Shown: piece by piece, positions 1,145 through 17,326 of the stretch | How the letters are laid out: each line of letters opens with the position of its first letter | Position numbering within the stretch: the stretch's first letter is position 1 | Origin: a virus | Direction: 5' to 3' (one strand) | Virus record (IMG/VR): IMGVR_UViG_3300036832_000238 | Span: 1-22,291 of that record | Length of the DNA stretch: 22,291 nucleotides | Made by a program: the position numbers and the translations under genes | Notes under the pieces: model-generated | Seen by the model: only the letters and a program-made list of their open reading frames with translations | The model's database searches: none | What the model was told of the DNA's origin: nothing

Positions 1145-3496
1145 CTAAAGTACGTCCCTCAGTCTAGGCATGGCAACTGGCTGCGGTATTACTACATGCT
1201 CGGCTATCCGATACATGCCAGCTTTCATCCTAGCCTCACGAAAGCGCACTATCATCCCACGATTTACCATGTCATCAACAGTGCGGCGTACAATCTGCTC
1301 GCTGATATTAAACAGTTCGCTCATGTCCTTTGCAGACATGCTATCACTGTTCTCTGATAGCTCATTAAGGATACGGTTCTCCAGTTGCGCGTCTTTCTTG
1401 GGTGCGCCGCGTGTATCAGCGCCACTGGCAAGATAGTCACGGAAGTCTGGAATTTCATGACCGGGTGGCAATGCCTCCCAAGAGACGCCATTGGATACTA
1501 TGGGAAACTGCTCTTTACCGAAGTCTCTGCTTTGTATTACTATCCAGCTTATCTCGCCTGTGAAGCGGTAGAACTCTTTGCTGTAGAGTTGGATTTGTGC
1601 ATCGGGAGCGCCTTGTTGCGCTACAGAACCGGCTGTTGCGTCCATCAGGTTGGACATACCCTTGACACCACCAGCGGGAGACTTCCTGTCATGCTTTACT
1701 GTTAATACAGCACAGGTGTACTCAAGCTCACGGATGATATCGTTGATAATCTCGATCTGTTCGTATTCGGCTTTATTGAGGTTGCGGATGCCAAGCCGTT
1801 CTTCGCTAAACAGGATGACGGGTTCGATCACGACCAGCCAAGGCTTACCGGGCCATTCCTTGTTGTACTCGCGTAACAGGTTGCGGATGCTGTCAGCGCC
1901 ACGGAAGCCGACTGGTAGGGTCTTTTGGCGTCCGTCCTGTATCTTGGAGCTACGGGTTACGAACGCTAGCCCCTTGAAAGCTTCCTCTATTTCTTCCTCT
2001 GTAATATCCGGCCATTTTTCCTTGGTAAGCCGTCTTAACTGTGCTTGCATCTTACGGTGAAAGCGGTCCTCTCGTTCCTCCAGTGCAAGGTACAGTACGT
2101 TACACTTAACCACCTCGCGCCCTAGGAATTTCTTACCAAACAGGAGGTGCAGCACAATCTCGTATGTTAGTGTCGTCTTACCCATTTTAGACGGCCCTGA
2201 CAGGACCGTGTGGGTATTAAGAACTATCAGTCTCTCGATCAGGTATTCTATTGGCTTAACCGGCTTGTTGCGTATCGTGTGATAAAATATCGGATACGCA
2301 AGCTCATCCGGTTCGTCTCCCAAGATAGCGCCGGGTGTAGCTGTCATGGTGCCAGCTATGCGCTTAAGCGGGATCGCTGGTAGCGTACCAAACTCGGTTG
2401 TCGTAATACCAAGCACATCGGCCAGCATGGTTGCGGCATTGTTCTTGGGAATATCCAACAGTTCAGCTAGCAGCGATATGGGAGTGCGGGAGCCATTAGT
2501 AGCATCGCCCATGTCAGCAACGCCAAAATCCATAATGCTACCATTAGGGTAGATCATTATGCGCTCTTGCAGTTCTCTATTAAGATCGTCCTGCGTTATC
2601 TGATAGCCGCCCTCGTAGTCATGTGCCAATTGACCTATCAGGTGTGGAACCCAGTCATGTATGGCGTTCTTGGCTACGTTATTAAGGAACGTGTATTGCT
2701 TCTCATCGGGCGGATATGGGTTCTTGTTGCCGCGAGTAGGAGTTACAAAGGCTAGGTGTGAGTGGGCCTTGACGAACGCTAACAGCGTTTCAAGTCTTAA
2801 TGGCTCTAACTCAAACCCTCGTATTATCTTGGCCTGCCTATGCGGACGGTCAATGGTATTATCACCCTTGCGAGCTACAGTACCGGGTATGCGGCATATG
2901 CGACTAGCGTTGAATACCTTTTTATCAAGCTCGACTAGCTCATCGTCGAACCTGTCAGCGATGATATGCAGCGTTGTCCGGATCAAGTCGCGGACCTCTG
3001 GCATGTTCTCTAGGCCGTCCTCCAGCCTGTAGCGGCCATGCCCGCCGTTGCCGCTGTCGATCAGGCAGGCCAGCGGGAAACCATGCTCACGCGCCAGCCA
3101 GTCCGTTGCAGCGCGCGTCCGCGCCAGCGCCTCTAGGTGCTGGCCGTCCGTGCTGGAAATGCCGGTCTTGCGCTTGGCGTCGAAGTCTAACAGCAGTTCC
3201 CGCCGCAGGATGATATCGGTGTCCTTGGTGAGCAGGCCGATGTTGGCAAGCTCCAACCGATTGGTGCAACGATCCAGTATCTCGGGCGCGGTGGGATTAA
3301 GAGTGCAATAGATGCCGGTCGTTCCAGCATTGTCATATTGCATAATAGCGTTGGCGGCGATGACCGGATCATTGAAGTAACCGCTCGTTATTCGCCCGCG
3401 TATCTTTTCAATAATGCGTAGCTCGGTCACAGTATCCTTCGATACTGACCAGCGCATAGCTCGCAGGACGGTGCTATAATCAGGCTCAGCGAGCAT
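1145..3496 (-). CDS. Fused AEP-type primase and RepA/DnaB-like RecA-fold helicase with C-terminal winged helix, 783 aa
   Basis: Likely the phage's main replication enzyme. Residues about 40-230 look like an archaeo-eukaryotic primase/polymerase (AEP) domain: LDFD at 103-106 (metal-binding hhDhD), GNGGHGRY at 149-156 (the G-x-G-x-H type motif), and RIPGT followed by KG at 202-211. Residues about 425-665 are a RecA-fold ATPase of the RepA/AAA_25 group: Walker A GPSKMGKT at 434-441, YLALEE at 469-474, WLVVIEP at 553-559 (Walker B-like), then the conserved KHDRKS...G loop near 601-611. Residues about 705-765 look like a winged helix (ISEQIVRRTVDDMVNRGMIV). The start at 3496 has no clear ribosome binding site, and an internal Met (residue 14) is possible. 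The gene lies downstream of a leftward terminator at 3.6 kb, so it may have its own promoter or depend on readthrough. Confidence 0.85.
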   Translation of the reverse strand: MLAEPDYSTVLRAMRWSVSKDTVTELRIIEKIRGRITSGYFNDPVIAANAIMQYDNAGTTGIYCTLNPTAPEILDRCTNRLELANIGLLTKDTDIILRRELLLDFDAKRKTGISSTDGQHLEALARTRAATDWLAREHGFPLACLIDSGNGGHGRYRLEDGLENMPEVRDLIRTTLHIIADRFDDELVELDKKVFNASRICRIPGTVARKGDNTIDRPHRQAKIIRGFELEPLRLETLLAFVKAHSHLAFVTPTRGNKNPYPPDEKQYTFLNNVAKNAIHDWVPHLIGQLAHDYEGGYQITQDDLNRELQERIMIYPNGSIMDFGVADMGDATNGSRTPISLLAELLDIPKNNAATMLADVLGITTTEFGTLPAIPLKRIAGTMTATPGAILGDEPDELAYPIFYHTIRNKPVKPIEYLIERLIVLNTHTVLSGPSKMGKTTLTYEIVLHLLFGKKFLGREVVKCNVLYLALEEREDRFHRKMQAQLRRLTKEKWPDITEEEIEEAFKGLAFVTRSSKIQDGRQKTLPVGFRGADSIRNLLREYNKEWPGKPWLVVIEPVILFSEERLGIRNLNKAEYEQIEIINDIIRELEYTCAVLTVKHDRKSPAGGVKGMSNLMDATAGSVAQQGAPDAQIQLYSKEFYRFTGEISWIVIQSRDFGKEQFPIVSNGVSWEALPPGHEIPDFRDYLASGADTRGAPKKDAQLENRILNELSENSDSMSAKDMSELFNISEQIVRRTVDDMVNRGMIVRFREARMKAGMYRIAEHVVIPQPVAMPRLRDVL

Positions 3497-5943: not shown

Positions 5944-6552
5944 CTAAATATCATATTCGTCAGCGTTGAACTGCTGCATTAATACCGATGTAACTATGTC
6001 ATCACCAGCAAAGCTAGGCAATTGGTTGCCGTTTTGCCAGAATTGACGATCTACAAGCGGCCTATCAGGGCGAATATACGTTATCCGACGCTGTATCTTG
6101 TCCTTGACGTTGTGCTGCTTGGTAAACGCCACAGCCACGAACACAGGGGGCCGCTTGTCCATCATGCCCTCGTCATGCATAATCGCCATTCCCGGTGGCA
6201 TGTGTGCGGGGTTGATCGTCGCGTCCTCGATCAGCCCAGTATAGCGCGGCGCGGCAAGGTACGGGCAGACCTGTAGGGCGTATGTCAGGCAGTCCAAGTG
6301 CATCGGAGGGTCAAGGTATGCGCCGTGCTTGTGAAAGGCGCTGGCGGGGCCTCCTACCAGCCATTTGACCTTGTGCAGCTTGCGTCCACAGATAGCGCAG
6401 AACCCGCCTATAATGATCTTCTGACGCTTGGCCTCGTCCATGACGGTAAAGTGCGGTCGTCCCGCCTTGTCGATCAGCGCGCCAGCGGGGATTGGATATC
6501 CCCGCCGGTCCAGTTTCAGGTGCGCCATTTGCGTGGGGATTAATACCTTCAC
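5944..6552 (-). CDS. Phage protein with Cys/His (zinc-like) domain, 202 aa
   Basis: The start is set at GTG 6552, which overlaps the upstream TGA by four bases (GTGA). A longer frame to 6606 would overlap the previous gene. The protein begins VKVLIPTQMAHLKLDRRGYP. The core has FCAICG (Cys52, Cys55), WLVGGPASAF, then DPPMHLDC (His85, Cys88) and ALQVCPYLA (Cys96). This spacing is that of a conserved phage domain of unknown function in which the Cys and His residues probably bind one zinc ion. The C-terminal half is mixed alpha/beta with basic patches (KDKIQRRITYIRPDRP). GGTATTAAT lies at the start (codons 3-5). Role unknown; a regulatory or nucleic-acid-binding part is possible. Confidence 0.7.
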   Translation of the reverse strand: MKVLIPTQMAHLKLDRRGYPIPAGALIDKAGRPHFTVMDEAKRQKIIIGGFCAICGRKLHKVKWLVGGPASAFHKHGAYLDPPMHLDCLTYALQVCPYLAAPRYTGLIEDATINPAHMPPGMAIMHDEGMMDKRPPVFVAVAFTKQHNVKDKIQRRITYIRPDRPLVDRQFWQNGNQLPSFAGDDIVTSVLMQQFNADEYDI

Positions 6553-6860
6553 AGTTGGGCCATTTCCTTGGGCGTGTCGGCGCTGATGATTATGATATTG
6601 CCGCACAGCACATCATCTAGTTTGTTAGGCTCCATAGCGGCTTGCCACATCATTGTGGCCGGAATGTTCAGCGGCAAATTATCAAGCTTGCCCTCCTCGT
6701 TGCAGAAAGCAACGCACTGACGGCCCTGCCACTCGTCCCAGTAGGGGAGCGCCTCGATATGCCCTCCAACCGCGTCTCGCAGTTGCTTGAGTTCAGGGCA
6801 CTTGGCCTGCTTGGAATCGGTGGTCGCACCATTGGCATTAATAATCGTCACGTAAAACAT
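6549..6860 (-). CDS. DUF3846-like protein, 103 aa
   Basis: It starts at ATG 6860, sharing one base with the upstream stop (TGATG), and ends with TGA overlapping the next gene's GTG. The segment LRDAVGGHIEALPYWDEWQG, then a run to FCNEEGKLDNLPLNIPAT, matches the DUF3846 pattern 'VGGYIE....CNEEGKL..LP.N', and the expected 'D.i.Gn.ii' tail follows (DDVLCGNIIII). The family is small, common in phages and plasmids of many bacteria, and has no proven function. Residues 7-11 (INANG) carry ATTAAT. The tight overlaps on both sides place it firmly in the operon. Confidence 0.75.
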   Translation of the reverse strand: MFYVTIINANGATTDSKQAKCPELKQLRDAVGGHIEALPYWDEWQGRQCVAFCNEEGKLDNLPLNIPATMMWQAAMEPNKLDDVLCGNIIIISADTPKEMAQL

Positions 6861-7930: not shown

Positions 7931-7954
7931 GCTAGCAGCCCTCAGGCTGCTAGC
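7931..7954 (-). repeat. Hairpin with stop codon in its loop
   Basis: GCTAGCAGCC (7931-7940) and GGCTGCTAGC (7945-7954) pair perfectly around a 4-base loop. The TGA stop of the DUF7192 gene (7942-7944) is in that loop. On the minus strand it is followed by GTTCTCACTTTG, without a real T-run, so termination would be weak. Confidence 0.65.
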
Positions 7955-8757
7955 TCGTCCTGCGATTGTTCGGCAATCTCGCGTGCAATGTGAGCCAGTG
8001 CAGATTGCACAGTCTTAGCAATGCCATTGCTGTTTGGCATTCCGTTAAGGCGGAATGCTGGACGGCCCAAATTGGCGATATCGTCGGCTGTGACAGTGCG
8101 TGTGTTACCATAGCCTGCGCTAGTCTTAATACCTTTCGGCAAGCGCTCACGTAGGGCAAAGCCAAGGCGGCGAAAGAAAGCCGGATGACCTACAGCAAAC
8201 GATATCGTGCCATAGTCGAGAATATCGCCAGCCTCTTTAATCGTCACCATTTCGCAAGTTAGATCGCCCTTGATGTTGGTTGTAAACGCTGTGAGCAATT
8301 CAACGCTAGTGCCGCTTTGCTCCAGTTCGTCCACATAGCGCGCAACAGCAATGCCATAGTTAGACATGTATTGCGCGCGTTGGTTACAGTTACCACAGGT
8401 TGCGACCACGATTGTTACAATAGGCGTTGCGCCCTTGTTGCGCTTCTGGCTCACCATATGATTAGGCAAGCCAGCACAAAAGCGGGGAACGTCCACGCGA
8501 TAGCCTGCCACGTCATGCCTCCATTCGTTATCAGTATTAATGGCAGGCAGGCTGGCAAGGTTGGTCGTGAAGTTGCGCGCGCCCTCTTTCCAGCCATCGC
8601 GCGCCAGTGTCCGCGCGCCCTCATAGCCTAGCGACAAGTCCCAGCTTTCCTCCGGATATGCCTTGTGGCTCTCCTTGTAGGGCCATGTGGGCTTGGTCGC
8701 GTCGATATAGCGCAGCATTGCTGGCACGCTCTCATGATGCTTGAAGTATTTAGCCAC
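7942..8757 (-). CDS. DUF7192-family phage protein, 271 aa
   Basis: It starts with GTG at 8757 (MAKYFKHHESVPAMLRYIDA), four bases after the stop of the AAA ATPase gene, in the arrangement GGATTAATACC-GTG. The segment LGYEGARTLARDGWKEG matches the family pattern 'S...A..lAr.GWpeG', and RHDVAGYRVDVPRFCAGLP matches 'yDvaG..pDV.ry.aG.P'. A later segment (NYGIAVARYVDELEQSGTSVEL) fits the family's alpha/beta core, which recalls a von Willebrand A-like fold. The family is found next to CobS/MoxR-type ATPases in many phages, as here. Its role is unknown. By analogy with MoxR-vWA pairs it may be the partner of the ATPase; this is inference. Confidence 0.72.
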   Translation of the reverse strand: MAKYFKHHESVPAMLRYIDATKPTWPYKESHKAYPEESWDLSLGYEGARTLARDGWKEGARNFTTNLASLPAINTDNEWRHDVAGYRVDVPRFCAGLPNHMVSQKRNKGATPIVTIVVATCGNCNQRAQYMSNYGIAVARYVDELEQSGTSVELLTAFTTNIKGDLTCEMVTIKEAGDILDYGTISFAVGHPAFFRRLGFALRERLPKGIKTSAGYGNTRTVTADDIANLGRPAFRLNGMPNSNGIAKTVQSALAHIAREIAEQSQDELAA

Positions 8758-8761
8758 GGTA

Positions 8762-9970
8762 TTAATCCCGATATGAAGAAATGCGAACTACGGACTTGAG
8801 TTGACTGGCTGTCTCGTGGTCCAGTCCCTTGAAAATCAGCGACGTTGCGCAATCTTCCCAAGTCTCTCCCGCTGCTATCATCCGCCCGCCTGTGATAGTT
8901 GCGCGCGGCGATACTATGTGACGCAGCGAACGCGACTCAACTTCGCGGCGCATTGCTTGCACATAGCGACACCACTTGTCATTCGGCGCCAATTTCGCCT
9001 CTAGCTCGCTGTCATAATCAATCGTTATGAAAGCAAAGCGGTCTAGCGTTGCTGCGTCAATTGGCGTGCGCCCGATATACTGGCGCGTTGCTCCGGAGCC
9101 GTAAGTATTGCCAGCGCCGATTGCAATAAAATCAGGGTGACGCTTCACCATACCATCGGGGAACGGACAGGTTCCATTGGCAAGCGCTGCGTTAAATGCT
9201 GTCAGTGCATTAGCGTCGCTCGCGTCCATTTCGTCGAACAAGAACACTCCGCCCGTCTCATAAGCAATCCGGAATAACGAGGTAACATAAACCCCGCCTC
9301 CGTTCATGTATCCCATAAGGTCGAATTTATCCTGTACTTTAGCAGCGAAGTAAAACGGCAAACCGAAAGCCTTGGCTACTTGTTCAGCGATGGTCGTTTT
9401 ACCGGAACCCGCAGGACCGACGAGGTAGGGCCAGACACGCTGCGCGCAGTAGTTCAGGACACGCGGCAAGATACTGTGTGCCGTGTCTAGCTCCACCTTC
9501 GGCAAGTCCGCGATGGTGACATGCAAGGCACGCGGCGCGACGCTGGCGACCAGTTCGCGCACGGTATCGGGCAGGCTGGACAGGAACCCTTGTACGTAGT
9601 CCGAACCCGCCGCCGCGCCCTCATTGCGTGCGGCTTGCAGGATCGCGGCCTTGATCGACGCTAGCTCATCGGCATTAATACCGCCCACAGGCGACGGGGA
9701 AGGCTGCACAGGCTGCACAGGCATTCCGTTATCCTGTAGCCAGCCTTGCTTGTGCGCCAGCGTCACAGCGCCCGCTGCGTCCCTTGCAGCGCAAGAGAAC
9801 AGGGCGCGCAATTCATGGGGGCGCAATGCGGCGGCTGTGTTGTCAGGAACGCCAATCGTTTCGGCCAGCCTGCGAGCCTGATTTATCATTTCGCCGCACC
9901 AGTTTGTGCGTGCGGTGACAGGACCGCCATTAATACGAATGATAGTGTCAACGTGGTGAGAAACGGACAT
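8762..9970 (-). CDS. CobS/MoxR-type AAA+ ATPase, 402 aa
   Basis: It starts at ATG 9970 with AAAGG seven bases upstream. Residues 1-170 are an N-terminal region with a Pro/Gln linker near 83-96. The AAA+ core has Walker A GPAGSGKT at 185-192, then FAAKVQDKFDLMGYMNGGG (the CobS-like stretch before the sensor region), Walker B VFLFDEMD at 242-249, a sensor-1-like AIGAGNTYG, and a TLDRFAFITIDYD segment with the arginine-finger-type Arg. ATPases of this group remodel proteins or insert cofactors. In phages the substrate is unknown. It ends with GAT TAA inside a copy of the repeated palindrome. Neighbours (SprT-like protease and DUF7192) form a recurrent phage gene set. Confidence 0.85.
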   Translation of the reverse strand: MSVSHHVDTIIRINGGPVTARTNWCGEMINQARRLAETIGVPDNTAAALRPHELRALFSCAARDAAGAVTLAHKQGWLQDNGMPVQPVQPSPSPVGGINADELASIKAAILQAARNEGAAAGSDYVQGFLSSLPDTVRELVASVAPRALHVTIADLPKVELDTAHSILPRVLNYCAQRVWPYLVGPAGSGKTTIAEQVAKAFGLPFYFAAKVQDKFDLMGYMNGGGVYVTSLFRIAYETGGVFLFDEMDASDANALTAFNAALANGTCPFPDGMVKRHPDFIAIGAGNTYGSGATRQYIGRTPIDAATLDRFAFITIDYDSELEAKLAPNDKWCRYVQAMRREVESRSLRHIVSPRATITGGRMIAAGETWEDCATSLIFKGLDHETASQLKSVVRISSYRD

Positions 9971-10004
9971 TAGTTAGCCTTTCGCAGTTAGTCTAAAGTT
10001 AGTG

Positions 10005-10029
10005 CAGCGCTGCAAGCGTTGCAGCGCTG
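10005..10029 (-). repeat. Strong intergenic hairpin between SprT-like and AAA genes
   Basis: CAGCGCTGCAA (10005-10015) and TTGCAGCGCTG (10019-10029) pair perfectly over 11 bp around a GCG loop. No T-run follows on the minus strand (CACTAACTTTAG), so it may be an mRNA processing or stability element rather than a terminator. Confidence 0.65.
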
Positions 10030-10040
10030 TGAGAACCCTA

Positions 10041-10066
10041 GAAGGTGAGGATTAATCCTCACCTTC
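10041..10066 (-). repeat. Perfect 26-bp palindrome centred on ATTAAT, over the SprT stop codon
   Basis: Two 10-base arms (GAAGGTGAGG and CCTCACCTTC) flank ATTAAT at 10051-10056. The TAA stop of the SprT-like gene is inside the ATTAAT. It may act as DNA (operator) or RNA (hairpin with a 6-base loop). Confidence 0.75.
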
Positions 10067-10663
10067 ATCATCCTGTCCTTTCAAGGGATGGACGAACAGG
10101 ATGCCGCCACAGTCAGGCACAGGGCAGGACATGTAGTCGTGTTGGCAATGCTTGGCGTTGACACGCGCCAGCCAGCCACAGTCCGGACAGTCAACCTTAT
10201 GCTGGAAAGTCTGTTTTTTCTTGGCAGGGCCAGTCAGGATGATTTGCCCGTGCGGCATGGGGCCGAGTTCCTCCAGAATAGGCTTAGCCCAAGCGTGCCA
10301 GTCAGGACCGGCAACCGTAGCTGTTGCCTTGCCTGTCAGCCCTACAGCCTTGGCAAGCTTCTGGAATGCCTTGCCATGATCGCGCTTTTCTAGTGCGGTA
10401 TGGCAAAGCTCATGGGTGAGAATGTCAGCAATGCGTGCATCGCCAGTCTCATTAGGATTGATAAAGATATTGAAGTGAGCGTCTGCGCTTGTCTCAGGGT
10501 AAATGCACTGCCCGGCAACCTTGCTACGGTATCCGGTTGTCGGATAGCCAATGCCTGCCTTGATGTTGGTTGGCAGCGGAGCGCCAAGCTCATCAAAAAT
10601 AGGCCGCGCCGCATTCGTGAAAGCGATTAACCATTCTTCCCGCGTTTTGTATGTGTTCTGCAT
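10052..10663 (-). CDS. SprT-like zinc metalloprotease with zinc ribbon, 203 aa
   Basis: It starts at ATG 10663 with AGAGGA seven bases upstream. The HELCH motif at residues 84-88 gives two zinc-binding His and the catalytic Glu. HGKAF at 96-100 supplies the third ligand, as in the SprT/Spartan family. A C-terminal zinc ribbon is formed by CPDC (159-162) and CPVPDC (180-185). SprT-family proteases in cells cut DNA-protein crosslinks, and phage versions are widespread but little studied. Length is usual for the family. The tail is acidic (GQDDEGED). It is upstream of the AAA ATPase in the same operon, and the three proteins (with DUF7192) probably act together; that link is inferred from gene order only. 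Confidence 0.85.
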   Translation of the reverse strand: MQNTYKTREEWLIAFTNAARPIFDELGAPLPTNIKAGIGYPTTGYRSKVAGQCIYPETSADAHFNIFINPNETGDARIADILTHELCHTALEKRDHGKAFQKLAKAVGLTGKATATVAGPDWHAWAKPILEELGPMPHGQIILTGPAKKKQTFQHKVDCPDCGWLARVNAKHCQHDYMSCPVPDCGGILFVHPLKGQDDEGED

Positions 10664-10934: not shown

Positions 10935-10960
10935 GGCAGACGGTATTAATACCGTCTGCC
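10935..10960 (-). promoter_or_regulatory. Perfect 26-bp palindrome containing GGTATTAATACC in operon leader
   Basis: The arms GGCAGACGGT and ACCGTCTGCC flank ATTAAT at 10945-10950; the centre (10942-10953) is the exact consensus GGTATTAATACC. On the minus strand TTTT follows directly, as in an intrinsic terminator or attenuator, and the ribosome binding site of the first gene is about 15 bases further on. It may be both an operator and an attenuator. Confidence 0.7.
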
Positions 10961-12319: not shown

Positions 12320-12898
12320 ATGCCTATGGCGATCTTGCCGCGTACCCCCGATGCGTTGGAAACGCTGGAGCAGGCTATCTGCGAATGCCACGGCGATTTG
12401 CTGGAGGCATGTAAGAGGATTAATGCCAGCTTTAGAGAGGCTTGTTTGTGGAGGGACGCGGACCCGGAGGTTGCTGAGCGGATACGCACGGCACAGCAGA
12501 TCGGGTGGGCCAGTCTGGAGAACGCGGCCTACCGGAGGGCGGTCGTCGGGGTGGACAAGACGGTGTGGCACAAGGGCCTGCCGGTCGGGGTCGAGAAGCA
12601 ATACAGCGACGGGCTGTTGACGCAGATGCTCAAGGCGAGGGTGCCTGCTTATGGCGATGCCGAGGGGGCGGCGCGAGCGAGCATGACGGTCAATGTCGCC
12701 GTGATGCCAAGGGCCAATTCCTATGATGACTGGGTAGTGCAGCGCGAGCGGATGCTGAGCGGGGACGCGGCGGACCCCCAGCAGCCCGTTCCTCTCGACT
12801 CACGGCCTCCGGAGGCGGTGCTACCAGCAAACCAGCAAGTGATAGAGCAGTGGCCTGCTGCTGTTGGCAAGCGTATTAATGGTTTGCCGGACTTATGA
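12320..12898 (+). CDS. Terminase small subunit, 192 aa
   Basis: Recognises the packaging start on phage DNA and recruits the large subunit. Residues about 14-60 form a helix-turn-helix-like unit ending in DADPEVAERIR (compare the usual 'DPEFA..'), and QYSDGLLTQMLKARVPAYG (94-112) matches the 'YSD.LL..LLKA..P..Y' hallmark of small terminases. The C-terminus is Pro/Gln-rich and probably contacts the large subunit. It starts at ATG 12320 with no clear ribosome binding site; the second Met (12326) is possible. Its TGA overlaps the next ATG by four bases. Two palindrome copies lie in the gene, at 12419 and 12875. Confidence 0.85.
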   Translation: MPMAILPRTPDALETLEQAICECHGDLLEACKRINASFREACLWRDADPEVAERIRTAQQIGWASLENAAYRRAVVGVDKTVWHKGLPVGVEKQYSDGLLTQMLKARVPAYGDAEGAARASMTVNVAVMPRANSYDDWVVQRERMLSGDAADPQQPVPLDSRPPEAVLPANQQVIEQWPAAVGKRINGLPDL

Positions 12899-13155
12899 AG
12901 CGGACCCAGGAGTTTGCCGAGACTGCGCCAAAAGGCCGGTACTCGTATGGTGATAACTTGGTGTTGGTGGTGTCTGGTATTAATGGCAGATCATGGATCG
13001 CCAAGATACAACGGAACAATGTCAGGCGTGATTATGGGGTAGGCCCTGTTAGCTCGGTCACGCTGGAGGAAGCTAGGAAGATAGCCAGAGATTATCGAAG
13101 AATGTTGAACGAGGGTAAAGACCCAACAAAGAAAGGGGGAACTGCGCGCCCATGA
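12895..13155 (+). CDS. Stand-alone Arm (integrase-type, DUF4102-like) DNA-binding domain protein, 86 aa
   Basis: The gene overlaps the small terminase stop by four bases (ATGA). Residues about 15-80 match the N-terminal Arm-binding domain of P4-family tyrosine integrases: strands NLVLVVSGINGRSWIAKIQ, then NVRRDYGVGPVSSVTLEEAR and the helix ARKIARDYRRMLNEGKDPTK, the last matching 'A...A...r.ll.eG.DP'. The catalytic integrase domain (R-H-R-Y) is absent; the protein ends a few residues after DPTK with GGTARP. The domain folds as a three-stranded sheet with a helix, like AP2, and binds short DNA sites. Lying between the two terminase genes it could help packaging-site choice or act as a regulator; both are guesses. 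GGTATTAAT encodes its Gly-Ile-Asn. Confidence 0.72.
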   Translation: MKRTQEFAETAPKGRYSYGDNLVLVVSGINGRSWIAKIQRNNVRRDYGVGPVSSVTLEEARKIARDYRRMLNEGKDPTKKGGTARP

Positions 13156-13159
13156 CATT

Positions 13160-14668
13160 ATGCCCAGTTCCAGTAAAGCAAGCCTTGAGGCTTTGTCTTA
13201 TCCTAGCCATGTGTGGCAGCCACAGCCGGGGCCGCAAGCCCTAGCTATCAGTGCAAGGTTCGTTACCGAGCTACTGTATGGCGGGGCCAGAGGTGGTGGA
13301 AAAAGTAGCTACCTGTTAGGGGATTTTCTGCAAGATGTTGGCGAGGGACCGGGGTGGGCCGGTATCCTGTTCCGTAAGTCTTATCCAGAGCTTGAGGAAC
13401 TAATCAAGCAAGCCAAGGAAATGTATCTGCACATTGGCGCTACATGGAAGGTGAGCGATAGGACATTCTCATTTCCCAGTGGCGCTACGCTGAAGTTACG
13501 GCATATCGACAATGAAGATGATGCCATGCTGTATCAGGGCCATGAGTATAGCTGGATTGGCTTTGATGAGTTGGGCAACTGGCCGGGGCTTAATGCCTAC
13601 AGGAAGATGAAGGCATGTCTGCGTGGTACTAATGCCGCTGTCACGCATAGAAGGATAAGGGCTACTGCTAATCCGGGTGGGCCGGGGCATCATGAGGTCA
13701 AGGCGTATTTTATTGACCATGACCCTGCCGGGTTTGAAATGGTGACGACGCCCGAGGGTACGACAAGAATGTTTATCCCGGCTAAGGTGTCTGATAATAG
13801 GATACTGTTAGCAGCCGATCCGGGGTATGTGAGCCGACTGAAGGAAGTTGGCAGTCCCGAGCTTGTCAGGGCTTGGCTGGAAGGTGACTGGAATGTTATT
13901 ACCGGAGCCTATTTTCCAGAGTTTAGTTCGGCACTGCATGTCATAGCGCCGTTTAAAGTGCCAGCGTACTGGTTGAGGTTCATTGGCGGGGACTGGGGAA
14001 GTGCCAGTCCTTTTAGCTTTCACTGGTATGCTGTCAGCGATGGGACTGTTAATATCCCGCAGCACGATGCACGGTTACCGCCACGGCTGATACCCAAGGG
14101 TGCGTTGGTGGTCTATCGGGAGTTTTATGGCTGTGTGCCGGGGATGGTGAATACCGGCCTGAGGTGGCCTGCGTCGAGGGTGGCCGAGGGGATTAAGGCG
14201 CGGCAGGCGGCGCTGGAGAAGCTGACCTATCGGGTGATGGACCCCAGTGCGTTCAAGCAGGATGGGGGGCCGAGCCATGCCGAGACGATGGCGAGGGCCG
14301 GGGTGTTCTTTCGCCCTGCTGATAATACGCGCCTTGCCGGGTGGAACGCGGTGCGCGAGCGACTGGTGGGGATCGACCCCGATCCGGATAGCGGGGTGGG
14401 ACAGCCGATGCTGTATATCTTCAATACCTGCCCCAACCTGATACGGACGCTGCCCGCGTTGCAGCATGATATCAAGAACCCCGAGGATTGCGATACCACC
14501 GCCGAGGATCATGCCCCGGATGATCTACGGTATGCATGTATGTCACGCCCTTGGTCGCGACCCAAGCCGCCGCCCGAGCCGCAATTGCCCAAGCGCCTGC
14601 GCGATGTGACGCTAACGGAATTGTTCAACGACCGGAAAGATATTATCAATGTTCACTATGGCATGTGA
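13160..14668 (+). CDS. Terminase large subunit, 502 aa
   Basis: The packaging ATPase and nuclease that docks on the portal. It starts at ATG 13160, four bases after the upstream stop. Motifs: Walker A GGARGGGKSS at 41-50; adenine-binding and helicase-like region with FRKSYPELEELI (71-82); Walker B WIGFDE at 132-137; coupling motif ATANPGG at 168-174; nuclease domain with FIGGDWG (274-280, Asp278 a metal ligand), VMDPSAF in the middle, and HAPDDLRYA near the C-terminus (a third acidic cluster). Length is usual for headful-type terminases, but the packaging type cannot be told from this sequence. The gene ends three bases before the end of a small minus-strand gene. Confidence 0.92.
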   Translation: MPSSSKASLEALSYPSHVWQPQPGPQALAISARFVTELLYGGARGGGKSSYLLGDFLQDVGEGPGWAGILFRKSYPELEELIKQAKEMYLHIGATWKVSDRTFSFPSGATLKLRHIDNEDDAMLYQGHEYSWIGFDELGNWPGLNAYRKMKACLRGTNAAVTHRRIRATANPGGPGHHEVKAYFIDHDPAGFEMVTTPEGTTRMFIPAKVSDNRILLAADPGYVSRLKEVGSPELVRAWLEGDWNVITGAYFPEFSSALHVIAPFKVPAYWLRFIGGDWGSASPFSFHWYAVSDGTVNIPQHDARLPPRLIPKGALVVYREFYGCVPGMVNTGLRWPASRVAEGIKARQAALEKLTYRVMDPSAFKQDGGPSHAETMARAGVFFRPADNTRLAGWNAVRERLVGIDPDPDSGVGQPMLYIFNTCPNLIRTLPALQHDIKNPEDCDTTAEDHAPDDLRYACMSRPWSRPKPPPEPQLPKRLRDVTLTELFNDRKDIINVHYGM

Positions 14669-14671
14669 CGC

Positions 14672-14821
14672 CTAGCGTTTTCCGTATGTGGTTTCCAGTA
14701 GCTTGACGACAATTTGTCGCCAGTCCTCAGGCAAGCGTTCCATCAGGTCTGGCGGCAATCGTAAAGAAACTTGAACCTTGCGTTGATGCTCAGGGGTTTT
14801 TGGCCTACCTAGTCGAGTCAT
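14672..14821 (-). CDS. Ribbon-helix-helix regulator, 49 aa
   Basis: This minus-strand frame starts at ATG 14821 with GGAGG eight bases upstream and stops at TAG 14672-14674. The sequence begins MTRLGRPKTPEHQRKVQVSL and continues RLPPDLMERLPEDWRQIVVK. The basic N-terminus (GRPKTPEHQRK), the strand KVQVSLRL, the helix start PPDLMERL and the second helix DWRQIVVKLLETTYG are the order and spacing of the Arc/CopG/MetJ-type (RHH) DNA-binding fold. RHH proteins bind palindromes as dimers. The gene runs against the flow of the head module and shares a 162-base divergent spacer with the portal gene, which holds two palindromes (14862-14875, 14900-14916). It may regulate itself and the portal promoter. 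Confidence 0.78.
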   Translation of the reverse strand: MTRLGRPKTPEHQRKVQVSLRLPPDLMERLPEDWRQIVVKLLETTYGKR

Positions 14822-14983
14822 AAAATAAACCTCCCACTCCCCCGAGAATGGCGGTTTTCCAACGCTGAACAGCGTAAGTCAAGCCACTTTAAATCGTATT
14901 TTATGTAGCACATAAAGTACGGTATTTACTGTGCCTTGTATTAGTACCGCTGTAGAGCTACCATGTGTCCTTGCGAGGAATGC
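14822..14983. promoter_or_regulatory. Divergent spacer between RHH gene and portal gene, with palindromes
   Basis: It holds ACGCTG-AA-CAGCGT (14862-14875), a minus-strand TTGACT box (14882-14877) that overlaps the upstream side of that palindrome, and TTTATGT-AGC-ACATAAA (14900-14916). AATCGTATTTT (14892-14902) is identical to 11444-11454 in the putative origin. No good -10 could be assigned on either strand, so the promoters are uncertain. These palindromes are the natural operator candidates for the RHH protein. Confidence 0.45.
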
Positions 14984-17326
14984 ATGGCGACGACTTCTAA
15001 ATACCCAGCGGACGACTCAAGCGGTGACAGCTACACCAACCGTCGCGGGTATTGGGAGGAGCAGATCACCAAGGCAAACAAGCGCTGGGAGAAGTTTGAG
15101 AAGGACGGTATTGCGGTCATGGACCGCTTTATGCTGGAGACGCAGTACATGGGTGACAAGTACAATATATTGTACTCGTCAACCGAGACGATAAAGCCGA
15201 GCCTGTACGGTCAAACTCCCAAGGTGCAGGTTAAGACTAGGCAGAGCGATACCGAGGATAATCTTAAGGTAGCCTCTGCCATGCTTCTGGAGCAAGTCGG
15301 CCAGTATGCGGTCGATATGCTCGACTTCGACTATATCATGCAGAACGTGGTTAGTGACTATGTGCTGCCGGGGATTGGCGTAGCGTGGATTAGGTACGAT
15401 CCGCAATTTGCGCCGATGTACTCCAACGATAACACGCCCGCTGTTAATGACGACGGCACGCAGGCTGAGTACCTGACATTCGAGGGCCTTGCGCTCGATT
15501 ACGTCCACTTCAAGGATTTTCGTACCGGACAGGCGCGGTACTGGCATGAGGTGCCTTGGATATCGCGGCGCACGTTCCTGACCAAGCGGCAGGCGACAGA
15601 ACGCTTCGGTGCGCAAAAGGCCAATGACCTTTGCTACACGTTCACACAGAAAGATAAGAACGAGGGTAATAAGACCGATAGCGGCTCCAAACAGGCCATT
15701 ATCTATGAGATATGGGACAAAGACAATAAAGAGGTGGTTTGGTACTCTGACGACTATTCCACCGATGTCTTGGACGCGAAGGCTGATCCGTACCGCCTTG
15801 AAAATTTTTATCCATGTCCTAGACCTCTGAGGGCCGTTTGGTCTAGCCAGAGTATTATACCAAAGTCGCTGTACTCGCAGTATCGAACGCAAGCCGCTGA
15901 GCTAGACCGGCTCACCGAACGCATTCGCTATCTGACGGAAGCTCTTAAGGTTCGCGGGCTATACGATGGCAGTCAGGAGAACCTAGCCAACTTGCTGGAT
16001 GGCGTTGGCAACAAGATGGTGGCCGTACAGGACTGGGCCAACTTCATGGGCGCTGGTGGTGTAACCGGCGTAGTGCAGTGGTTGCCCATTACTGACGTAA
16101 CCAACTGCCTAGGCGAGCTATTCAAGCAGCGCGAGATTTGCAAGAACGAGATATACGAGATAACTGGCTTCTCTGATATTGTCAGGGGTATTAGTAAGGC
16201 TTCTGAAACTCTAGGTGCGCAGCAACTTAAGGCAGACTGGGCTACCGGCCGTCTTAAGGACATGCAGCGCGAGGTGCAGCGTTTCTGCCGCGATGTGATC
16301 CGCATATTCATTGAAATTGCTGCTGAGCATTTCAGTGATAAGACGTTGATGTTGTATAGTGGTATTACGATCCAGCCACCGTCACCGGCTGAGATACAGG
16401 CCAAACAGCAGTATCAACAGCAATTAATACAGTTTCAGCAAGCACAGGCGCAGTTTCCCCAGCAAGCGCAACAGGCGCAAATGCAGGGACAGCCGATCCC
16501 GCCACAGCCCCAACCACCCCAAGACCCCGGCCCTACGCAGGGCGAGCAAATGCAGGTCATGTTCAACGCGGTGGTCAAGCTGGTTCGTCAGGACAAGCTT
16601 AGACTGGCTGCGGTCGGGATTGAGACTGACAGCACGATCCTGCCCGATGAGCAGAAAGAGCGCCAAGACCGGATGCAGTTCTTGGCGAGTATGGGTGCAT
16701 TTCTCCAGCAAGCCGCTCCAATGGCAATGCAGTTCCCCGATATGCGCGGGCTGCTAGGCGGTATTATGATGTTTACGCTGCGCACGTTCTCAGCTTCCCG
16801 GCCATTGGAGAAGGAATTTGAGACGTTCCAGAAGAAACTGGAAGCAATGCCGCCTACACCGCCTCCCGGTCAGCAGGATAATGGACAGGCTGCGGCGCAG
16901 GCTGCGGCTCAAGTGGCACAGATGAAAGCGCAAGCGGATATACAGATGGCTTCGCAGTCGGATGCTACCAAGCGCTACGAGATAGATCAGAAAACGCAGT
17001 CTGAGGGTAACAAGCAGGCCAACGAACATCAGTTCCGTATGGCGCAATTGAACCTAGACCAACAGAAACTTCACCTTGAGACAACCAAGACTGGCCTTAA
17101 CGCTCTTAATGACGCGCATAACAGCCAGATCGAGACGCATGGTCACATGGTCGATGCCATAGCCGAGACTGGGCAAACGCTACAGCAGCAAGACTATAAC
17201 GCTGCACAGGCCGAGCTAGAGCGCCACCATAAGCAAGCAATGCAGTTTTCACAGCAAATGCATGAGGCCGAACAGAACAGCGCGGAACGTGCTGCTAGGC
17301 CAGCACAGAGTCAAAGCGATGCTTGA
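14984..17326 (+). CDS. Portal protein (P22-like group), 780 aa
   Basis: Forms the dodecameric ring at the capsid vertex through which DNA passes. The start is set at ATG 14984 (MATTSKYPADDSSGDSYTNR), with GAGGA four bases upstream. The ATG at 14963 would add seven Cys-rich residues. The N-terminal half has the portal-type order: helical start (EQITKANKRWEKFEKDGIAV), beta-rich wing with YNILYSSTETIKPSLYG, then the clip and stem helices, and GISKASETLGAQQLKADWAT near the stem. The C-terminal part is strongly Gln-rich (PAEIQAKQQYQQQLIQFQQA and following) with helical repeats, as in the barrel of long portals of the P22 group. Length is slightly above P22's. It overlaps the next gene by eight bases. 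Confidence 0.85.
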   Translation: MATTSKYPADDSSGDSYTNRRGYWEEQITKANKRWEKFEKDGIAVMDRFMLETQYMGDKYNILYSSTETIKPSLYGQTPKVQVKTRQSDTEDNLKVASAMLLEQVGQYAVDMLDFDYIMQNVVSDYVLPGIGVAWIRYDPQFAPMYSNDNTPAVNDDGTQAEYLTFEGLALDYVHFKDFRTGQARYWHEVPWISRRTFLTKRQATERFGAQKANDLCYTFTQKDKNEGNKTDSGSKQAIIYEIWDKDNKEVVWYSDDYSTDVLDAKADPYRLENFYPCPRPLRAVWSSQSIIPKSLYSQYRTQAAELDRLTERIRYLTEALKVRGLYDGSQENLANLLDGVGNKMVAVQDWANFMGAGGVTGVVQWLPITDVTNCLGELFKQREICKNEIYEITGFSDIVRGISKASETLGAQQLKADWATGRLKDMQREVQRFCRDVIRIFIEIAAEHFSDKTLMLYSGITIQPPSPAEIQAKQQYQQQLIQFQQAQAQFPQQAQQAQMQGQPIPPQPQPPQDPGPTQGEQMQVMFNAVVKLVRQDKLRLAAVGIETDSTILPDEQKERQDRMQFLASMGAFLQQAAPMAMQFPDMRGLLGGIMMFTLRTFSASRPLEKEFETFQKKLEAMPPTPPPGQQDNGQAAAQAAAQVAQMKAQADIQMASQSDATKRYEIDQKTQSEGNKQANEHQFRMAQLNLDQQKLHLETTKTGLNALNDAHNSQIETHGHMVDAIAETGQTLQQQDYNAAQAELERHHKQAMQFSQQMHEAEQNSAERAARPAQSQSDA

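Follow-up and report, generated by a model that had tools for sequence, protein, structure and literature searches.

A reverse-strand gene for a 49-residue ribbon-helix-helix protein of BrnA C-terminal type at the terminase-portal junction of a phage group

The locus

The DNA analysed here (the window) is a virus record of 22,291 bases, in which leftward early genes, among them those for a helicase-like protein, a SprT-like protein and an AAA ATPase, lie at about 0.7-10.9 kb, and packaging and head genes run rightward from 12.3 kb. Part of the early region (7942-10663, minus strand) is a conserved block with DUF7192 (E 4.6e-30), the AAA ATPase and the SprT-like protein, which tblastn also finds in the related genomes G001, G002, G003 and G004. 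In the packaging module, the gene for the terminase large subunit (13160-14668, plus strand; PHROG 979, E 2e-38) is followed by that of an Mx8-like portal protein (14984-17326, plus strand; PHROG 12082, E 2e-168, with tblastn matches to Mx8/Mx9); the choice of the ATG at 14984 as portal start is supported because the nearest relative, L001, shares the ATGGCGACGAC start.

Between these two genes, on the minus strand and tail-to-tail with the terminase gene, an ATG-initiated reading frame at 14672-14821 encodes the 49-aa product MTRLGRPKTPEHQRKVQVSLRLPPDLMERLPEDWRQIVVKLLETTYGKR and ends 3 bases past the terminase stop codon. A Shine-Dalgarno sequence, GGAGG (14830-14834, minus strand; CCTCC on the plus strand), is placed 8 nt from the ATG, and the homologous starts in L001 and L003 are likewise preceded by GGAGG. 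The preliminary description of this DNA had pointed to an overlooked 49-aa gene with a GGAGG site, antisense inside the head module; the gene is present as described, on the minus strand between terminase large subunit and portal, and it has homologues in the same slot whose codon differences show purifying selection. The leader also contains a hairpin (14834-14851, minus strand) that is directly followed by the GGAGG and a T-rich stretch; it is scored as terminator-like and could act as an attenuator or in control of the ribosome-binding site. A scan for leftward terminator-like sites beyond the stop codon of the gene found none.

Conservation and selection

Ten related IMG/VR records were collected through their terminase (75-88% identity). 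Conservation in relatives had been named beforehand as a check on the existence of the gene, and six of the ten (L001, L002, L003, L005, L007 and L009) have a homologue at the same place, likewise on the minus strand. The homologues are 47 (L001), 57 (L002), 52-59 (L005), 63 (L007) and 57 (L009) aa long; that of L003 has about 57 aa if counted from an internal start, while its first ATG would give 95. All except the L001 homologue overlap the end of the terminase gene. These homologues were reached only through synteny with the terminase, direct searches with the 49-aa protein having given no significant match in phage records or IMG/VR. The A4 profile matches the window copy, whose own row is part of the profile, with E 2.2e-21, and the copies in the other six records with E 2.5e-17 to 5.8e-31; by the homologue profile the gene occurs in exactly seven records, and in 0 of 17 other relatives' records.

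The differences between the window and L001 copies are distributed over the three codon positions as 16/13/29, those between the L002 and L009 copies as 12/6/31, and dN is far below dS wherever it could be computed among the copies, a pattern that points to purifying selection on the protein. At the same time the gene has changed far more quickly than the genes around it: its copies are 22-57% identical to that of the window, versus 76-88% for the terminase. Because of the same-slot homologues, the codon-position pattern and the conserved upstream TTGAC described below, we judge that 14672-14821 is a real gene.

Relationship of the protein to BrnA antitoxins

Five of the six homologues pass the cut-off of PF14384 (BrnA_antitoxin) with E values from 1.4e-11 to 2.7e-8, while the L001 homologue has no match to this family and the window copy, with 15.9 bits, is below the Pfam gathering cut-off of 26.1. 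All seven copies match PHROG 4692 ('antitoxin') at E<=0.5, the window copy at E 0.074. The window copy owes its place in the ribbon-helix-helix (RHH) superfamily to the A1/A4 alignment and profile, its score alone being that given above; by homology, then, the RHH assignment of the preliminary description is borne out. An NCBIfam search returned nothing useful beyond a single VapB match at E 0.046, and neither a PDB sequence search nor PADLOC gave anything useful for the protein.

When aligned with the full-length BrnA of three phages, the seven copies correspond to its C-terminal half alone (GRP motif, strand and two helices), and the N-terminal ~40 residues of BrnA are missing in every one of them; the window and L001 copies are also shorter by three residues (GxG) in the inter-helix loop. 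AlphaFold monomer models, of low to moderate confidence, have an extended stretch and then two helices (H24-27, H34-46; H30-38, H43-55; pLDDT 75/69). No strand is formed in them, a lone RHH monomer lacking its dimer sheet, and neither Foldseek nor VIA-align returned PDB matches to the models. In BrnA the RHH domain is C-terminal and controls brnTA transcription, according to a review (PMC11980606). The BrnT toxin (PF04365) is absent from the 13 records searched, a set that includes G002, a complete genome of 42,285 bp as judged by its 109-bp end repeats. The window copy therefore differs from a BrnA proper in scoring below the Pfam cut-off, in having no N-terminal segment and in not forming an operon with BrnT, and the best reading of the alignments is that the protein is derived from the C-terminal half of BrnA-type antitoxins or has this domain in common with them.

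Promoter and putative boxes in the upstream spacer

With the portal start at 14984, the divergent spacer between the two genes (14822-14983) has 162 bases. The sequence TTGAC at 14878-14882 (minus strand), 61 nt upstream of the RHH start, is the only 5-mer that the upstream regions of all seven copies have in common inside a single 8-position range, at 61-68 nt from the start; none of 500 shuffles gave any such shared 5-mer, also when only the five distinct lineages were used. The upstream regions were compared by distance to the start codon; when the spacers of the window and L001 are aligned with MAFFT, their TTGAC elements do not fall on each other. A good -10 sequence is present in L007 (TATTAT, spacing 17); that of the window is weak, no clear -10 hexamer being recognizable there. 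We conclude from the conserved, -35-like TTGAC that the RHH gene has a leftward promoter of its own. No rightward promoter was detected in the spacer by a consensus scan.

The most enriched 5-mer in six pooled spacers is AATAC/GTATT, with 15 occurrences versus 3.6 expected (0/300 shuffles), and it is present in all six. The window has three such putative operator boxes, at 14896-14900, 14922-14926 and 14938-14942, the third as part of GTATTAGTAC, which is one mismatch away from the dispersed site discussed in the next section. In the window, L001, L002, L005 and L007 the boxes are upstream of, or overlap, the TTGAC; L003 has one box also between TTGAC and the start, and the L009 spacer has no exact box. 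Perfect palindromes that contain the box are found in L005 and L003 (TGTATTTAC-T-GTAAATACA and TGTATTCGCGAATACA), and the L002 and L009 spacers share TCCGACAAT-like repeats. Repeats within single spacers other than the GTATT boxes mostly did not exceed those of shuffles. The case for operators is weakened because AATAC is over-represented across the whole window, about 2.5-fold relative to base composition, as it also is across several related genomes.

The preliminary description had instead singled out two palindromes as possible binding sites. Both are present in the 162-base spacer: ACGCTG-AA-CAGCGT (14862-14875) is just downstream of TTGAC on the leftward strand, and TTTATGT-AGC-ACATAAA (14900-14916) has 12-bp arms with one mismatch (p about 0.03). 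Neither is conserved, and the spacer of L001 contains no palindrome with arms of at least 6; in addition, the statistics are marginal (p about 0.04 for two palindromes with arms>=6, about 0.09 for the longest arm), so that as operators the palindromes are doubtful.

Dispersed TTAA-centred sites

The early genes of the window contain 8 GTATTAATAC-like sites, versus 0.29 under synonymous-codon shuffling, and GTATTAAT occurs 21 times in the window versus 2.4 expected from an order-3 Markov model, with counts on both strands. One GGTATTAATACC site (10942-10953), upstream of the leftward early genes, is embedded with its flanks in a longer perfect palindrome, GGCAGACGGTATTAATACCGTCTGCC. It had been proposed that the RHH protein may be the reader of the dispersed GGTATTAATACC sites and could control the early/late switch. 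Such a global role would fit the near-match GTATTAGTAC at 14938 in the spacer of the RHH gene itself, the enrichment of the half-site GTATT in the spacers and the excess of sites in the early genes. It is opposed by the relatives without the RHH gene, in which TTAA-centred 8-mers are equally over-represented: CTTTAAAG in G008 (98 versus 5.9 expected) and G012 (50 versus 2.6), CTTTAATG in G007 (29 versus 1.6) and CTCTTAAT in G009 (17 versus 1.5). In each genome of the group that we examined, whether it has the RHH gene or not, a TTAA-centred 8-mer of its own is in excess, more weakly so in G003: CTATTAAT in G002 (48 versus 5.2) and also in G001, CATTAATG in G003 and G010, TATTAATG in G004 and CTTTAAGG in G011. 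Moreover, no GTATTAATAC-like site is found in 10 kb of G003, which does have the RHH gene. The dispersed sites are mostly inside coding sequence, with some in non-coding DNA, their flanks are lineage-specific, and in G001 and G002 they occur in the early and late halves alike. Because genomes without the gene have them too, there is no need to regard the RHH protein as their reader; on these counts the sites are more likely due to a different conserved factor, or to something else, and a global switch protein acting at these sites appears highly improbable. The sites themselves may deserve more attention than the RHH gene.

The junction as an accessory slot

In relatives without the RHH gene the gap between terminase and portal is 70 nt or less, and often the two genes overlap, the exception being the carriers of an Acb2-type gene. 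In these, two further lineages, the gap is filled by rightward genes, one of which encodes an Acb2_Tad1_hairpin protein. The matches to this family (PF24729, E about 1e-11) are at 6530-6745 (plus strand) of L006 and at 1778-1978 (plus strand) of L013; L027 carries the same stretch as L013. Members of the Acb2/Tad1 hairpin family are anti-CBASS sponges, and the slot gene is a probable anti-CBASS gene by its family match. Because relatives without the RHH gene have either adjacent terminase and portal genes or an Acb2/Tad1-type gene at this place, the slot is one that takes accessory genes.

On both the terminase tree (95/96) and the portal tree (84/95) the records with the RHH gene cluster together as one group, for which a single gain of the gene is the simplest account; the RHH gene was probably gained once. 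A scan of bacterial genomes for prophages with the portal alignment found no relative. Between the terminase subunits, an ORF of 86 aa (12895-13155, plus strand) matches the integrase Arm-DNA-binding domain (PF13356, E 2.5e-13) and has no catalytic domain; Phage_integrase (PF00589) has no match in the window record or in the ten related records.

Proposed role and alternatives

We favor, with a probability of roughly 0.6, the reading that this is an accessory gene, gained once, for a stand-alone RHH protein of BrnA C-terminal type that is transcribed from its own TTGAC promoter, binds the boxes in its spacer and regulates itself. It would represent a small 'moron'-like cassette that entered one branch of the Mx8-portal phage group, in reverse, at the junction of the terminase large subunit and portal genes. 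Dimers of RHH proteins bind short repeated boxes, which in most lineages here may be AATAC/GTATT, in a spacer of 140-200 bp upstream of the promoter. Binding would control this promoter, and perhaps also the transcription that runs into the portal gene. Since the RHH gene is convergent with the terminase gene, a rightward late read-through transcript would be antisense to the RHH mRNA, and expression would tend to precede late transcription. The protein is best read as a small DNA-binding protein that probably regulates itself through its own spacer, and a local role as regulator is plausible.

An alternative that we regard as unlikely is that the protein is an orphan antitoxin used in counter-defence, which would neutralize a host BrnT-type toxin or repress its operon, as other phage antitoxin mimics act against host toxins. 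The BrnA-type homology without a BrnT in the phage, the Acb2/Tad1-type (anti-CBASS family) gene that holds the same slot in related lineages and the very fast divergence are all in its favor; however, the segment missing from all seven copies is the N-terminal one of BrnA, presumably the part that binds the toxin, as the RHH domain is C-terminal. A variant of the same idea, which we find more doubtful, is that the halved, toxin-less BrnA serves as a counter-defence or host-takeover factor, by occupying brnTA operators or by pairing with the host BrnA, from a slot that this phage group would use for counter-defence genes, such as the Acb2/Tad1-type ones of related lineages.

We give slightly less credit again to the possibility that the leftward transcript matters rather than the protein, with convergent antisense RNA or transcriptional interference tuning terminase versus portal expression. 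The tight or overlapping arrangement of the gene with the terminase end in the window and five relatives, and the lack of a leftward terminator-like site beyond the RHH stop, would be consistent with it, but purifying selection with few second-position changes argues that the protein product matters. The global switch discussed above ranks just below. Finally, a chance ORF without function, for which the shortness of the frame and the weak family scores of the window copy might speak, is refuted, since slot, frame, Shine-Dalgarno site and TTGAC element are all conserved and the codon pattern speaks against it.

Taken together, an antisense gene for a protein of under 50 aa, first noticed by eye, proves to be genuine and under selection, and the junction between terminase and portal serves this phage group as an accessory slot, which holds either a halved antitoxin or a gene of the Acb2/Tad1 type. 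The family offers a compact test case for the way in which DNA-binding domains of antitoxins turn into free-standing regulators of phages.

Comparison with known systems

Phage morons are independently transcribed accessory genes. The RHH gene resembles them in lying between two genes that relatives have side by side and in having a promoter of its own, at the sequence level; it differs in that no terminator of its own was found and in its orientation, opposite to that of the host operon. Arc and Mnt are very small stand-alone RHH repressors of phages, encoded in the immunity region. The protein described here is likewise very small and stand-alone, but its gene belongs to the packaging module, and a search of 11 records for an integrase found none.

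There is a close likeness to the BrnA antitoxins (PF14384, formerly DUF4415) of the Bordetella phages PHB09 and IFTN4 and of the Acidovorax phage Acica, with which the family shares the GRP motif, the strand (vSLRl), a short first helix and the second helix. Those antitoxins have 92-98 aa, against 49-63 aa here, where the first ~40 residues of BrnA have no counterpart, and in all three phages BrnT is immediately upstream of BrnA, whereas the 13 records searched here have no BrnT, next to the gene or elsewhere. Rhizobium phage RHph_N3_2 (MN988526) has a solitary DUF4415 gene (40791-41009, minus strand; BrnA-type RHH, E 1.2e-18), whose product is found weakly as a homologue of the L003 copy (E 0.05). 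Its flanking genes have no Pfam match, and thus there is no recognised BrnT, as here; the gene is located about 670 bases upstream of the terminase large subunit and not between terminase and portal. Since it is likewise antisense to packaging genes, a solitary BrnA-type RHH gene of this kind is not unprecedented.
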